From Microgenomates group bacterium RIFCSPHIGHO2_01_FULL_45_11 (GTDB lineage Bacteria > Patescibacteriota > Microgenomatia > UBA1400 > 2-01-FULL-45-11), in contig MHDE01000007.1 of the NCBI GenBank assembly GCA_001803465.1, positions 7,445 through 43,360 on the forward strand: a stretch of 35,916 bases of DNA, given 5' to 3'. The translations under genes were made by a program, and so were the position numbers. The notes under the pieces are model-generated. The model saw only the letters and a program-made list of their open reading frames with translations, was not told the DNA's origin and did no database searches. This document shows, one piece after another, positions 11,891-18,860 of the stretch (within the stretch, counting starts at the first letter, position 1; the number at the start of each line of letters is the position of its first letter).

Positions 11891-12049
11891 CTAATCCCAC
11901 TATTGATCTGGCTTACCATCCAGGGAAGCGGGCGGACTGGGACGAACCCAGAGAACGAAGTTGTCCCGATATTACATCGGGGAAATGGGGTGGAACCATC
12001 CCGATATCAATTGGGGTCCCCATGGCTAGAAGTGGCCATGGGTTTTTTT
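11891..12049 (+). promoter_or_regulatory. T-box-like riboswitch leader with antiterminator/terminator
   Basis: GGTGGAACC core; antiterminator ATGGGG[TGGAACC]ATCCC...GGGGT-CCCCAT; competing terminator CCCATGGC/GCCATGGG + T7; thrS downstream. Confidence 0.7.
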
Positions 12050-12064
12050 AGTAAAAAGGACATT

Positions 12065-12394
12065 ATGAATGACCAATCGGCTGAAAAGACTGTTAATCAA
12101 AGTGTGGTTAAGGAAGAGAGGATGGGAGAGACGAAGACCGTGTACAACGCCTCGGGTGGGGAAGTGTTTTGGAAGAACTTCTTGGCTGGTTTTGGCCGAG
12201 CTTTAGGAAGTGTTTTCGTGTATTTGCTTTTTCTGGGATTAATCGTTTATCTATTCACCAATTACCTGTTTCCCCAGATTAAACCATGGCTTGATCAGTA
12301 CGCCAAAGCCATTGAGGTTTTGACTCAGCAAAAAGGCGGGCAGTCCGGTAATCAACAAGAATTACAACAAATGATGGAGAAATTATATCGATAG
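12065..12394 (+). CDS. Small single-TM membrane protein of unknown function
   Basis: MNDQSAEK...GSVFVYLLFLGLIVYLFTNYLF; ATG downstream of the terminator preferred over 11903. Confidence 0.7.
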   Translation: MNDQSAEKTVNQSVVKEERMGETKTVYNASGGEVFWKNFLAGFGRALGSVFVYLLFLGLIVYLFTNYLFPQIKPWLDQYAKAIEVLTQQKGGQSGNQQELQQMMEKLYR

Positions 12395-14862: not shown

Positions 14863-15057
14863 ATGCCGAAGGTTAAGACCAGAAAAATTGTGGCCAAGCG
14901 GTTTAAAATTACCAAGACCGGTAAAATTTTACGCCGGGCTCAGAATATGCGCCATTTGCGGCGGAGAAAGTCTAAGCGGCAAATTCGCGCTTACCGGGTG
15001 CCGAAGCAAGTAACGGGAAAAATGGCCAAAAAAATACGAACGATGTTGGGAAGGTAG
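14863..15057 (+). CDS. rpmI: 50S ribosomal protein L35
   Basis: MPKVKTRKIVAKRFKITKTGKI...AQNMRHL. Confidence 0.95.
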   Translation: MPKVKTRKIVAKRFKITKTGKILRRAQNMRHLRRRKSKRQIRAYRVPKQVTGKMAKKIRTMLGR

Positions 15058-15296
15058 TGAGCAATAAACGCCGTTTTAACCGTTTGTTTAACCAAACTGC
15101 CAGAGCTTTGAAAGCAGTCAGGGCGGCACAGGTTTTTGGCAGATTGAATCGGTTGATGCCTTATACCTTACCTGTCGATAATTTTTTTCGAAGGCATATT
15201 AATAAAATTAGACAAAAAGATTGGTTGAAAAGGAGTAAACCATGGCCAGAGTCAAAACCGGGCCCAGCCGGAGGCGACACCATAAAAAAGTCTTAG
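15057..15296 (+). CDS. Hypothetical basic protein between L35 and L20
   Basis: GTG start overlapping the rpmI stop; 79 codons; 55-bp overlap with rplT. Confidence 0.4.
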
Positions 15297-15601
15297 CTAG
15301 AACGGCCGGCATGCGCATGTCGAAGGGCCGGCTGTATAAGGTAAGTCGGGAGGCAGACCTTCACGCTGGGCAGTATGCCTATATTGGTAGAAGACTGAGA
15401 AAACGCGATATGAGGAGGTTATGGATACTTAGAATTAATGCGGCTCTCAAAAGCTATAAGTTAGAGATAACCTATTCTCGTCTTATCCCGCTACTAAAAA
15501 AAGCAAAGATAGAACTGGACAGAAAAATTTTGGCAGAGTTGGCGGTAACTGATCCGGATACTTTCAAGGCTGTGGTTGACAAAGCAAAGGGCTCTCAATA
15601 A
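15242..15601 (+). CDS. rplT: 50S ribosomal protein L20
   Basis: [33 protein letters not shown]. Confidence 0.96.
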
Positions 15602-15602
15602 A

Positions 15603-15659
15603 ATGCAAGTAATGACTAGTTTAATCGCCTTCACCGCTTTCTTTTTTAGCCTCGGCTAA
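15603..15659 (+). CDS. Phe-rich leader peptide (pheM-like), MQVMTSLIAFTAFFFSLG
   Basis: 18-codon ORF with four Phe codons (TTC ACC GCT TTC TTT TTT), at the E. coli pheM position. Confidence 0.75.
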   Translation: MQVMTSLIAFTAFFFSLG

Positions 15660-15711
15660 AGGGGAGCGGTCAGGTGGCGTTTTTGACAAGCTCCCCAAGG
15701 GGGCTTTTTTT
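15630..15711 (+). promoter_or_regulatory. Ribosome-mediated transcription attenuator upstream of pheST
   Basis: 1:2 ACCGCT(15633-15638)/AGCGGT(15665-15670); 2:3 GGGGAGC(15661-15667)/GCTCCCC(15690-15696); 3:4 AAGCTCCC-CAA-GGGGGCTT + T tract. Confidence 0.75.
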
Positions 15712-15769: not shown

Positions 15770-16792
15770 ATGCAAGAACAAATAAACAATCTTAAAAACG
15801 AAGCCATTGCGCTTATTACCCAGGCAGGTTCAGCCAACGAGCTCGAGGAATTGCGCCGGACGTATCTCGGGCGAAAAGGCAAAATTAATGAATTTGTCAA
15901 ACTCATGGCCGAAGCAACGGGTACAGAGCGGGCACAACTCGGCAAGTCAATTAACGAAACCAAGCAGGTTATCGTTCAAGCACTTACTGACCAGGCAGAA
16001 AATTACCGCCAGCAAACAGCGTGGCTGGATGTGACTCAGCCAGGGAAATTGCCACCGATGGGGCATTTGCATCCGATAACCCAAGCGATTGAGGAAATCA
16101 CCAGGATTTTTGAAGGGATTGGCTTTACGCGTGTCAGATACCCGGAAATTGATTACGACTGGTATGTCTTTACCGCGCTTAATATGCCGCCCAAGCACCC
16201 GGCGCGGGATGAATGGGAAACGTTCTTCATTGACGCCTCTTCCCATCCTAGTAAAGGCGAGTTGGTATTAACGACGCATACCAGTAACGGCCAAGTGCGA
16301 GAAATGGAACGGGTTAAGATACCTCCGATTAGAATGCTTAATATTGGTAAATGCTATAGGCGGCAACAGGATGTGACCCACACGGCTATGTTTCACCAAT
16401 TTGAAGGTTTGGTGATCGATTCGGGAATCACTATCCAACATTTGAAAGGGACGCTCAACTATTTCGCCAGGAAGTTTTACGGACCGCAAGCTAAATCTCG
16501 AATTAGGCCGTTTATGTTTAAGTTTACTGAACCAAGTTTTGAAGTTGATTTCTCCTGTGTCCACTGCAACGGTGAAGGCTGCAGATTTTGCAAGTCCGGT
16601 TGGCACGAAGTCGGTGGAGCCGGAATGGTACACCCTAATGTTTTGAAAGCGGGCGGGATTGACCCGGAAAAATATACAGGCTTTGCCTTTGGTTGGGGGG
16701 TGGAGCGGGTTTATACCCTAAAGCCAGGATTACACCTTGATGATATTAGACCTTTATATAGCACCAATTTGGAATTCCTTGAACAATTTTAA
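15770..16792 (+). CDS. pheS: Phenylalanyl-tRNA synthetase alpha subunit
   Basis: HPITQAIEEITRIFEGIGF, HTSNGQVREM, FEVDFSCVHCNGEGCRFCKSGWHEV, GFAFGWGVERV. Confidence 0.96.
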   Translation: MQEQINNLKNEAIALITQAGSANELEELRRTYLGRKGKINEFVKLMAEATGTERAQLGKSINETKQVIVQALTDQAENYRQQTAWLDVTQPGKLPPMGHLHPITQAIEEITRIFEGIGFTRVRYPEIDYDWYVFTALNMPPKHPARDEWETFFIDASSHPSKGELVLTTHTSNGQVREMERVKIPPIRMLNIGKCYRRQQDVTHTAMFHQFEGLVIDSGITIQHLKGTLNYFARKFYGPQAKSRIRPFMFKFTEPSFEVDFSCVHCNGEGCRFCKSGWHEVGGAGMVHPNVLKAGGIDPEKYTGFAFGWGVERVYTLKPGLHLDDIRPLYSTNLEFLEQF

Positions 16793-16805: not shown

Positions 16806-18860
16806 ATGAACATTTTAATACCCCACCGTTGGTTGTTGGAACACTTGAAGACCTCCGTTTTGCCCCAAAAAATCCAGGAGTATTTATCTTTGTGCGGGCC
16901 GAGTGTGGAACGGTTGAGTAAGGTTGACGGTGATTGGATCTATGACATTGAGGTAACCACTAATCGGGTAGACATGATGAGTGTGATCGGTATTGCCCGA
17001 GAGGCGGCGGCGATTTTGCCAGAGTTTGGTGTCAAAGCTGAACTGGTTCCGCTGACTTTGCCACCGATAGCTAGTTACAAATCACTGGACATAAAAATCA
17101 TCAATAATCCTCAACTGTGTCAGCGGATTTTGGCAATCAAACTAGGAGGGGTAAAAATTGGACCGTCGCCAGAATGGCTACAAAAACGTCTCATCCAAGT
17201 GGGACAACGGCCACTCAACAACGTCATCGACATTACTAACTACGTGATGTGGGAAGTGGGGCATCCAGTGCACGTGTTTGATTATGACCGGTTGACTAAA
17301 AAAACGATTGCCGTTCGTGAAGCTAAAAAGGGTGAACGACTGAAAACCTTGGATGATAAAGTTCACCGACTTGTCGGTGGGGAAGTAGTGTTTGATGACG
17401 GTACAGGAACAATCATTGATTTGCCGGGAATTATGGGGACGGCCAACACGGTGGTGACTGATAAAACAACCAATATCCTACTGTGGATTGAATCGATTGA
17501 CCCGGTTAAGATTCGACAAGCGTCCATGACACTTGCGATTCGGTCACAAGCAGCGGTACTCAATGAAAAACAGGTAGATCCGGAGTTGGGACTGATGGCG
17601 GTGTTACGAGTTGTCGAACTGTGCCAAAAGCTAACCCAAGCCAAGGTGGCTAGTAAACTGGTGGATATTTACCCGGTCAAACCAGTTATTAAGCCAATTA
17701 CCTTAACCGATGAACGATTGACCACGTATTTAGGCCTTCGAGTTGAACCAGAGAGAGTAAAAGGGATTTTGGAAAGGTTGGGGTGCCAAATTCAAGTTAA
17801 AAATGAAAATTTAAAAGTTAAAAATAATAAAAAAGGCGGGGATGAGGAAACTATCAATTATGAGGTGGTGCCGCCGACCTGGAGGGCAAGAGACCTAACC
17901 ATTCCTGAAGATCTGATTGAGGAAGTGGCCAGAATTTACGGCTATCATAATTTCCCCAGTTCCGTCATGGCAACAACGATTCCAGATGCGCCGTCGGAAG
18001 AAAACTTTCGCTTGGAGTACCAAATAAAACAGTGGCTAACGGGCTGGGGATTTACTGAAATCTATACCTATTCCATGGTAGCCAAGGATTTGGTTTTGGC
18101 GTCAGGATATCCTCTGGCCTCACACTTAAAAATCAAGAACCCGTTGTCCGACGAGTGGGTTTATATGCGTCGGTCTTTGGTACCGTCGATCATGGCCGTC
18201 GTTGAAAGTAACCAGCGTGATATGATTCGGGTCTTTGAAATGCAAAATGTTTTTCACCCGGCAGGAAAACGGTCCGAACTACCGAATGAGGAATTACAAT
18301 TAGTGGTAGCGACTACGACGAGTTATCAGGAGTTGAAGGGTGTGGTTGATGGGTTGATGACTAAGTTGTTTTTGGCTAATGAACTTTACGTAGTGCCTAC
18401 TAACGTTGATCAGGATGGTTTTGGCGTGGGGCAGACCGGAGAGATAGTGGTCGGGAAAAAACGGCTAGGAGTAATGGGACAATTGAAGGCAAAGAAAATG
18501 TGGGTGGCGAAAATTTTGATGAGGGAGTTAATGGCTTTGGCCAGAACGCACCCCCGGTATATTCCGATTAAAACCACGCCACCGATTAGGGAAGACTTGA
18601 CGTTTCAGGTTCCAGATAAAACCTACCTTGGTAACTTGCTCCTTACTGTTGCTAAGACGAGTAAACTGGTGGAGACAGCGATTATTTCTAAGCGTTATAA
18701 ACCACCAACGGCAACCGATTCTACCAATATTACTTTGACTCTGACTTACCGTGACCCCAAGAAATCGCTGACTGATAAAGAACTAATGCCGGTTCGGAAA
18801 AAGATTGCGACCTCCTTAGCGCAACTGTATTCAGCTCAACTGGTTGGTTTACTGGAGTAA
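16806..18860 (+). CDS. pheT: Phenylalanyl-tRNA synthetase beta subunit, no N-terminal EMAP/tRNA-binding domain
   Basis: NVIDITNYVMWEVGHPVHVFD, IPEDLIEEVARIYGYHNFP; C-terminal FDX-ACB-like region. Confidence 0.95.
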   Translation: MNILIPHRWLLEHLKTSVLPQKIQEYLSLCGPSVERLSKVDGDWIYDIEVTTNRVDMMSVIGIAREAAAILPEFGVKAELVPLTLPPIASYKSLDIKIINNPQLCQRILAIKLGGVKIGPSPEWLQKRLIQVGQRPLNNVIDITNYVMWEVGHPVHVFDYDRLTKKTIAVREAKKGERLKTLDDKVHRLVGGEVVFDDGTGTIIDLPGIMGTANTVVTDKTTNILLWIESIDPVKIRQASMTLAIRSQAAVLNEKQVDPELGLMAVLRVVELCQKLTQAKVASKLVDIYPVKPVIKPITLTDERLTTYLGLRVEPERVKGILERLGCQIQVKNENLKVKNNKKGGDEETINYEVVPPTWRARDLTIPEDLIEEVARIYGYHNFPSSVMATTIPDAPSEENFRLEYQIKQWLTGWGFTEIYTYSMVAKDLVLASGYPLASHLKIKNPLSDEWVYMRRSLVPSIMAVVESNQRDMIRVFEMQNVFHPAGKRSELPNEELQLVVATTTSYQELKGVVDGLMTKLFLANELYVVPTNVDQDGFGVGQTGEIVVGKKRLGVMGQLKAKKMWVAKILMRELMALARTHPRYIPIKTTPPIREDLTFQVPDKTYLGNLLLTVAKTSKLVETAIISKRYKPPTATDSTNITLTLTYRDPKKSLTDKELMPVRKKIATSLAQLYSAQLVGLLE

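Follow-up and report, generated by a model that had tools for sequence, protein, structure and literature searches.

A probable phenylalanine leader-peptide attenuator upstream of pheST in a class of Patescibacteria

Introduction

As of 2010, the documented cases of transcription attenuation by leader peptides were confined to Proteobacteria, Actinobacteria and, as a recent addition, some Firmicutes (PMC2965389). Described cases include the actinobacterial trp, trpS and leuS attenuators and the His leader of hisS/hisZ in bacilli (PMC1262725, PMC2965389), and an attenuator of pheST is established in gammaproteobacteria (PMC1262725). In Sinorhizobium meliloti, the leader mRNA of the trpL attenuator starts at the AUG and is thus leaderless (PMC7298713). 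The closest counterpart of the locus described here is pheM of E. coli (Rfam RF01859, Phe_leader), with which it shares a short ORF carrying a run of Phe codons, a three-segment RNA switch and an intrinsic terminator. T-box elements (RF00230) likewise subject aminoacyl-tRNA synthetase genes to transcriptional control by uncharged tRNA, but do so by binding the tRNA directly.

To our knowledge, regulation in Patescibacteria is almost uncharted. Attenuation goes unmentioned in a 2024 review of these bacteria, and we found no paper in the open-access literature on attenuation or leader peptides in the candidate phyla radiation (CPR). Here we analyze the interval between rplT and pheS in a 35,916-nucleotide stretch of DNA, hereafter the window, together with the corresponding region of related genomes.

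Results

Pfam assignments give the gene order thrS, infC, rpmI, rplT, pheS and pheT in the window, identical to that of E. coli, where pheM lies between rplT and pheS. The spacing differs: about 120 nt separate rplT from the pheM ORF in E. coli, compared with 1-10 nt between rplT (stop codon, 15599-15601) and the ORF in the window. A sequence-only reading of this DNA had described an 18-codon, Phe-rich ORF 1 nt past the rplT stop, in a probable CPR lineage. The ATG at 15603 and the Phe cluster were recovered base for base, with four Phe codons at 15630-15632 and 15639-15647, and the lineage was borne out by the best-matching rplT records, which are Patescibacteria MAGs, many of them from Microgenomates lineages. 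As in pheM-type attenuators, a Phe-clustered short ORF thus sits directly upstream of pheST with an intrinsic terminator in between (Table 1).

Table 1. Features of the rplT-pheST region, in window coordinates
Feature	Position	Strand	Basis
rplT (ribosomal protein L20), upstream gene	15242..15601	+	Pfam PF00453, E 2.8e-35
Promoter-like site TTGACA-17-TAAAAT, end of rplT	15576..15604	+	11/12 match
Leader ORF, long form, MQVMTSLIAFTAFFFSLG then stop	15603..15659	+	sequence
Leader ORF, short 15-codon form, MTSLIAFTAFFFSLG then stop, preferred start	15612..15659	+	promoter spacing
1:2 hairpin, no-ribosome state, sequesters segment 2	15626..15679	+	MFE fold
Putative regulatory Phe codons (TTC ACC GCT TTC TTT TTT)	15630..15647	+	sequence, ribosome-position folding
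Segment 2, GGGGAGC, 1 nt after leader stop codon	15661..15667	+	sequence; most relatives same position
Antiterminator inner helix, 15669-15674 with 15682-15687	15669..15687	+	fold of 15651-15696, -19.7 kcal/mol, z -2.5
Intrinsic terminator (3:4), 8 bp stem, loop 3, T tract	15688..15711	+	sequence, folding
Segment 3, GCTCCCC, common to antiterminator and terminator	15690..15696	+	sequence, folding
pheS, phenylalanyl-tRNA synthetase alpha subunit, putatively regulated	15770..16792	+	Pfam PF01409, E 2.3e-81
pheT, beta subunit, putatively regulated	16806..18860	+	Pfam PF03483, PF17759, PF03484

Two other ORFs on the same strand were observed near these genes. A 79-codon basic ORF (15057-15296, +) begins on the rpmI stop codon and overlaps rplT; it has no Pfam match, and its one similarity, a weak one, is to the equivalent position in the relative L061 (46% over 26 aa, E 0.02). 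Upstream of thrS, a small membrane-like ORF (12065-12394, +) shows weak, below-cut-off similarity to DUF4199, and its homologs in L031 and L064 apparently also lie upstream of thrS.

The leader region of the window folds at z = -3.2 relative to dinucleotide shuffles. All three pairings proposed in the sequence-only reading were recovered: ACCGCT (15633-15638) with AGCGGT (15665-15670), which lies within the longer 1:2 hairpin; the 3:4 terminator (stem 15688-15706) with its T tract; and the 7-bp antiterminator GGGGAGC/GCTCCCC, which understates the helix, as the inner helix extends it. We then folded the RNA with a ribosome placed at every codon of the leader from 15612, taking the ribosome to extend 12 nt downstream from the start of the A-site codon. 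Without a ribosome, the 1:2 hairpin formed and terminator probability was about 0.95. With a ribosome at any of the four Phe codons, the probability of the 2:3 pairing was 0.99-1.00 before segment 4 was made, and in the full RNA those of antiterminator and terminator were 1.00 and 0.00. At the stop codon the ribosome covered segment 2 and terminator probability returned to 0.95. A mutually exclusive antiterminator is thereby freed in silico by a ribosome at the regulatory codons, as characterizes pheM-type Phe attenuators, and the folds switch with ribosome position in the way the originally proposed stalled-ribosome logic demands. When the leader was shuffled by dinucleotides and the terminator kept, 2 of 400 shuffles reproduced this three-state switch. 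E. coli pheM, our positive control, yielded the same pattern: before segment 4 was made, antiterminator pairing reached 0.69 with the ribosome on Phe codons, compared with 0.19 when it stood on the stop codon and 0.04 in its absence.

For comparison with relatives, we examined the sequence preceding pheS, to a maximum of about 1.9 kb, in 152 genomes of the window's class (92 from its own order and 60 from other orders), scanning for short ORFs with at least 3 identical residues in seven codons and a terminator 8-45 nt downstream. Phe matches occurred on the sense strand in 33 of the 152 genomes compared with 8 on the antisense strand (Fisher 3.5e-5), and the residue ranked next, Leu, was found in 11 genomes. 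A slightly wider scan, from which rplT tails and two unlikely matches were removed by hand, placed a dedicated Phe leader upstream of pheS in 35 of the 152 genomes, representing 22 families (family labels such as f4, f5 and f11 are anonymous); examples, each ending at its stop codon, are MSHKENLFFFFTTS, MKTNSVTSRFFFFTQQ, MYSGNSTSPFFFPAI and MNLTTFSASFFFFTKK. Most resemble the window in having a G-run 0-6 nt past the stop codon and a terminator about 25 nt past it. None of 40 genomes from other classes of the phylum had such a leader (Fisher 1.5e-4); two long frames that passed the scan there were dismissed as not leader-like. The expected conservation of Phe codons, position and alternative pairings was seen among these leaders but not across the class, as a strict Phe leader was found in only about a quarter of its genomes and is absent or undetected in most.

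The leaders also bear on what the element would sense. The 2:3 pairing of the window forms for every ribosome position in the range of codons 5-13 of the short form, a span reaching beyond the Phe codons, and this is consistent with a leader-peptide attenuator that responds mainly to generally slow translation, or to stalling caused by a drug or by the peptide itself, rather than to Phe-tRNA. The peptides, however, are not conserved apart from their Phe runs, and the downstream genes encode the Phe synthetase, making such a response very improbable.

The -10 box of the promoter-like site in the window ends 7 nt before the in-frame ATG at 15612. This placement recurs: a sigma70-like promoter matching at 9/12 or better precedes the ATG in 17 of the 35 dedicated leaders, with 5-12 nt (mostly 7-9 nt) between the end of its -10 box and the ATG, compared with 14 of 917 control ATGs (Fisher 9e-19, somewhat inflated by leaders that have several candidate ATGs). 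With the promoter-like site directly before it, 15612 is no less likely than 15603 to be the start; the ATG first chosen is present, but that beside the leader's own promoter appears the more likely of the two. Since the promoter ends 5-12 nt before the ATG in about half of the leaders, the leader mRNA is probably leaderless or nearly so. No Shine-Dalgarno sequence was evident before the window leader, a point that weighs against the attenuator reading. E. coli pheM differs in lacking such promoter placement. The leader peptide mRNA of S. meliloti trpL is leaderless, whereas for the window a leaderless start is read solely from promoter spacing; trpL differs further in its Trp codons, its trpE(G) operon and its alphaproteobacterial host. 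We found no promoter-like site between the terminator and pheS in the window, so that pheST transcription, whether from the leader promoter or from rplT, must pass the terminator.

Segments 2 and 3 co-vary between families, a check that the sequence-only reading had proposed: GGGGAG/CUCCCC, GGUGGG/CCCACC (f6), GUGGAGG/CCUCCAC (f13), CGCGGGG/CCCCGCG (f4) and GGGAGGUU/AACCUCCC (f5) differ in sequence and remain complementary. As a MAFFT alignment of 19 leaders left the G-runs out of register, column-based pair counts were dropped in favor of an alignment-free swap test. Each segment 2 scored 15.15 with its own terminator arm versus 12.39 (sd 0.37) when arms were swapped, a value reached in 0 of 20000 permutations; with one genome per family the scores were 14.89 and 12.59 (sd 0.52). 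In both the shuffle and the swap tests shared ancestry is not fully removed, related sequences not being independent. An antiterminator helix score of at least 15 was reached by 66% of leaders compared with 15% of 41 unrelated terminators; against other terminators of the same rplT-pheS regions, a control that includes a possible rplT-tail class, complementarity was weakly distinctive (p 0.06). A ribosome at Phe gave an antiterminator pairing of 0.80 across 37 leaders (the 35 dedicated leaders plus two rplT tails), compared with 0.22 when it stood at the stop codon and 0.48 when it was absent (Wilcoxon 7e-11 and 5e-6).

These results can be set against a simpler explanation, namely that the hairpin is the ordinary terminator of the thrS-infC-rpmI-rplT operon, that the pheST promoter lies further down and that the Phe-rich ORF arose by chance. 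Relatives commonly have rplT followed by a terminator without any leader ORF, and some complementarity to upstream sequence is frequent among terminators close to rplT. Yet an 11/12 promoter match lies just before the leader ATG and no promoter-like site was seen between terminator and pheS, Phe is specifically enriched, shuffles rarely show the ribosome-position switch and many families keep the pairing, leaving this explanation quite improbable.

The same tests point to a second arrangement. In family f11 the terminator directly follows rplT, a G-run lies just past the rplT stop, and the end of rplT carries an extra Phe (F[TS]xKK or similar before the stop, for example a terminal VSFTVKK); two f11 genomes with overlapping rplT and pheS have neither the terminator nor the extra Phe. 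G025 (f5) has an rplT tail ending in TFKFVFTKAS, and its relative G004, which has no terminator, has a different tail of 11 residues that lacks the additional Phe codons. Ribosome-position folding of rplT tails gave 0.68-0.89 with the ribosome on the Phe codons and no more than 0.15 with it on the stop codon. We tentatively propose, at slightly less than even odds, that in f11 and independently in G025 the rplT tail itself serves as the Phe-tRNA-sensing leader for pheST with no separate peptide, while the lineage of the window uses a separate leader on a leaderless mRNA; the proposal draws on two independent lineages. The f10 tails (DFxxF followed by a terminal VRG) were not counted as leaders because DFxxF also occurs in f10 genomes without a terminator at that place, marking it as a lineage trait. 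G019 (L002/L110), which has the most similar rplT of the relatives searched, shows a possible rplT-leader fusion: its rplT continues in frame into a leader-like end, MTTARSLASFLFNLH before the stop, followed by GGAGGGGAGT and a terminator.

Other elements occupy the rplT-pheS interval of some relatives. A conserved RNA-like element with its own promoter was observed in L249-L254 (f4) and L248 (G002), laid out as TTGACA..TAnnAT followed by TGCGAGAAGCAACC and, further on, GGAAGGTTGCTTTTGGCGTAT. Exact AGGTTGCTTTTGGCGT occurs in 7 of 55 relatives, once per genome, always between rplT and pheS and nowhere else, and the element had no credible Rfam match. G147 (f35), G136 and G097 carry variants with compensatory changes, fused to the leader. 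In some relatives pheS is separated from rplT or from the leader by an AlaX-type (alanyl-tRNA editing)-like frame, recognized by eye; in L016 and L026 this frame lies between the rplT-proximal terminator and pheS.

T-boxes are frequent in the window's order, with matches in 34 of 55 relatives, 8 of them above cut-off. The window itself contains a T-box-like element (11894-12042, +) upstream of ORF 12065-12394 and thrS, with a GGGGTGGAACCATCCC core whose UGGA fits a discriminator-U tRNA such as Thr, a short upstream hairpin loop containing ACC, and a terminator of 10 bp with T7; it scores 24.3 bits (E 0.016) with the Rfam T-box model, below cut-off, and its Stem I is seemingly very short. Both observations lend some plausibility to sensing upstream of pheST by a T-box or another tRNA-binding riboswitch instead of by leader translation. 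However, no T-box match was obtained at 15603-15711 even at a relaxed threshold (up to E 10), the Phe codons share the frame of a short ORF, and relatives with otherwise different leader sequences have the Phe cluster too, so that we regard this form of sensing as extremely unlikely.

Against RF01859 the window scored 23.7 bits over the full model, far below the gathering score of 55 bits, and it is therefore not a member of that family. As a detector in relatives the model proved too unspecific, with matches at E of at most 1 in 53 of 55 genomes and 0 of 55 over the cut-off.

Discussion

We observed computationally a Phe leader between rplT and pheS, a fold switch governed by ribosome position, and the recurrence and co-variation of this arrangement in relatives. 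The most probable reading, at roughly 86%, is that pheST is controlled by a ribosome-mediated transcription attenuator responsive to the charging of tRNA-Phe. This agrees with the pheM-type logic that the sequence-only reading had proposed for a CPR lineage, which the fold switch, the relatives and the co-variation support at the computational level.

Under this model, RNA polymerase would transcribe the leader ORF, either from the promoter in the last part of rplT or by readthrough from rplT itself, and a ribosome would follow it, translating the leader from a start at or near the 5' end of the mRNA. When Phe-tRNA is scarce, the ribosome would stall at the Phe cluster and mask the 5' half of the 1:2 hairpin; the freed GGGGAGC would then pair with GCTCCCC, no terminator would form and pheST would be transcribed. 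When Phe-tRNA is plentiful, the ribosome would reach the stop codon and cover GGGGAGC, the terminator would form and transcription would end before pheS. Without translation, the 1:2 hairpin would likewise permit termination.

The mechanism is thus a known one, of the pheM type, and what is new is its probable occurrence in a class of Patescibacteria, a phylum for which we found no earlier report in the open-access literature. The site is syntenically identical to that of pheM while the sequence is unrelated, which suggests convergence or repeated re-invention relative to E. coli. Like the actinobacterial and bacillar leaders, the window leader would represent leader-peptide control of aminoacyl-tRNA synthetase genes outside the Proteobacteria, although those leaders involve other amino acids and other phyla. 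Unlike T-box control, it would operate through leader translation, at a site without a T-box match, in an order that has T-boxes elsewhere. The window leader is a compact element, amenable to testing in a heterologous host. Collectively, these findings imply that a class with reduced genomes may tune its Phe synthetase to the supply of Phe-tRNA, and that the coupling of transcription to translation in these bacteria would be tight enough to let a stalled ribosome govern RNA polymerase.
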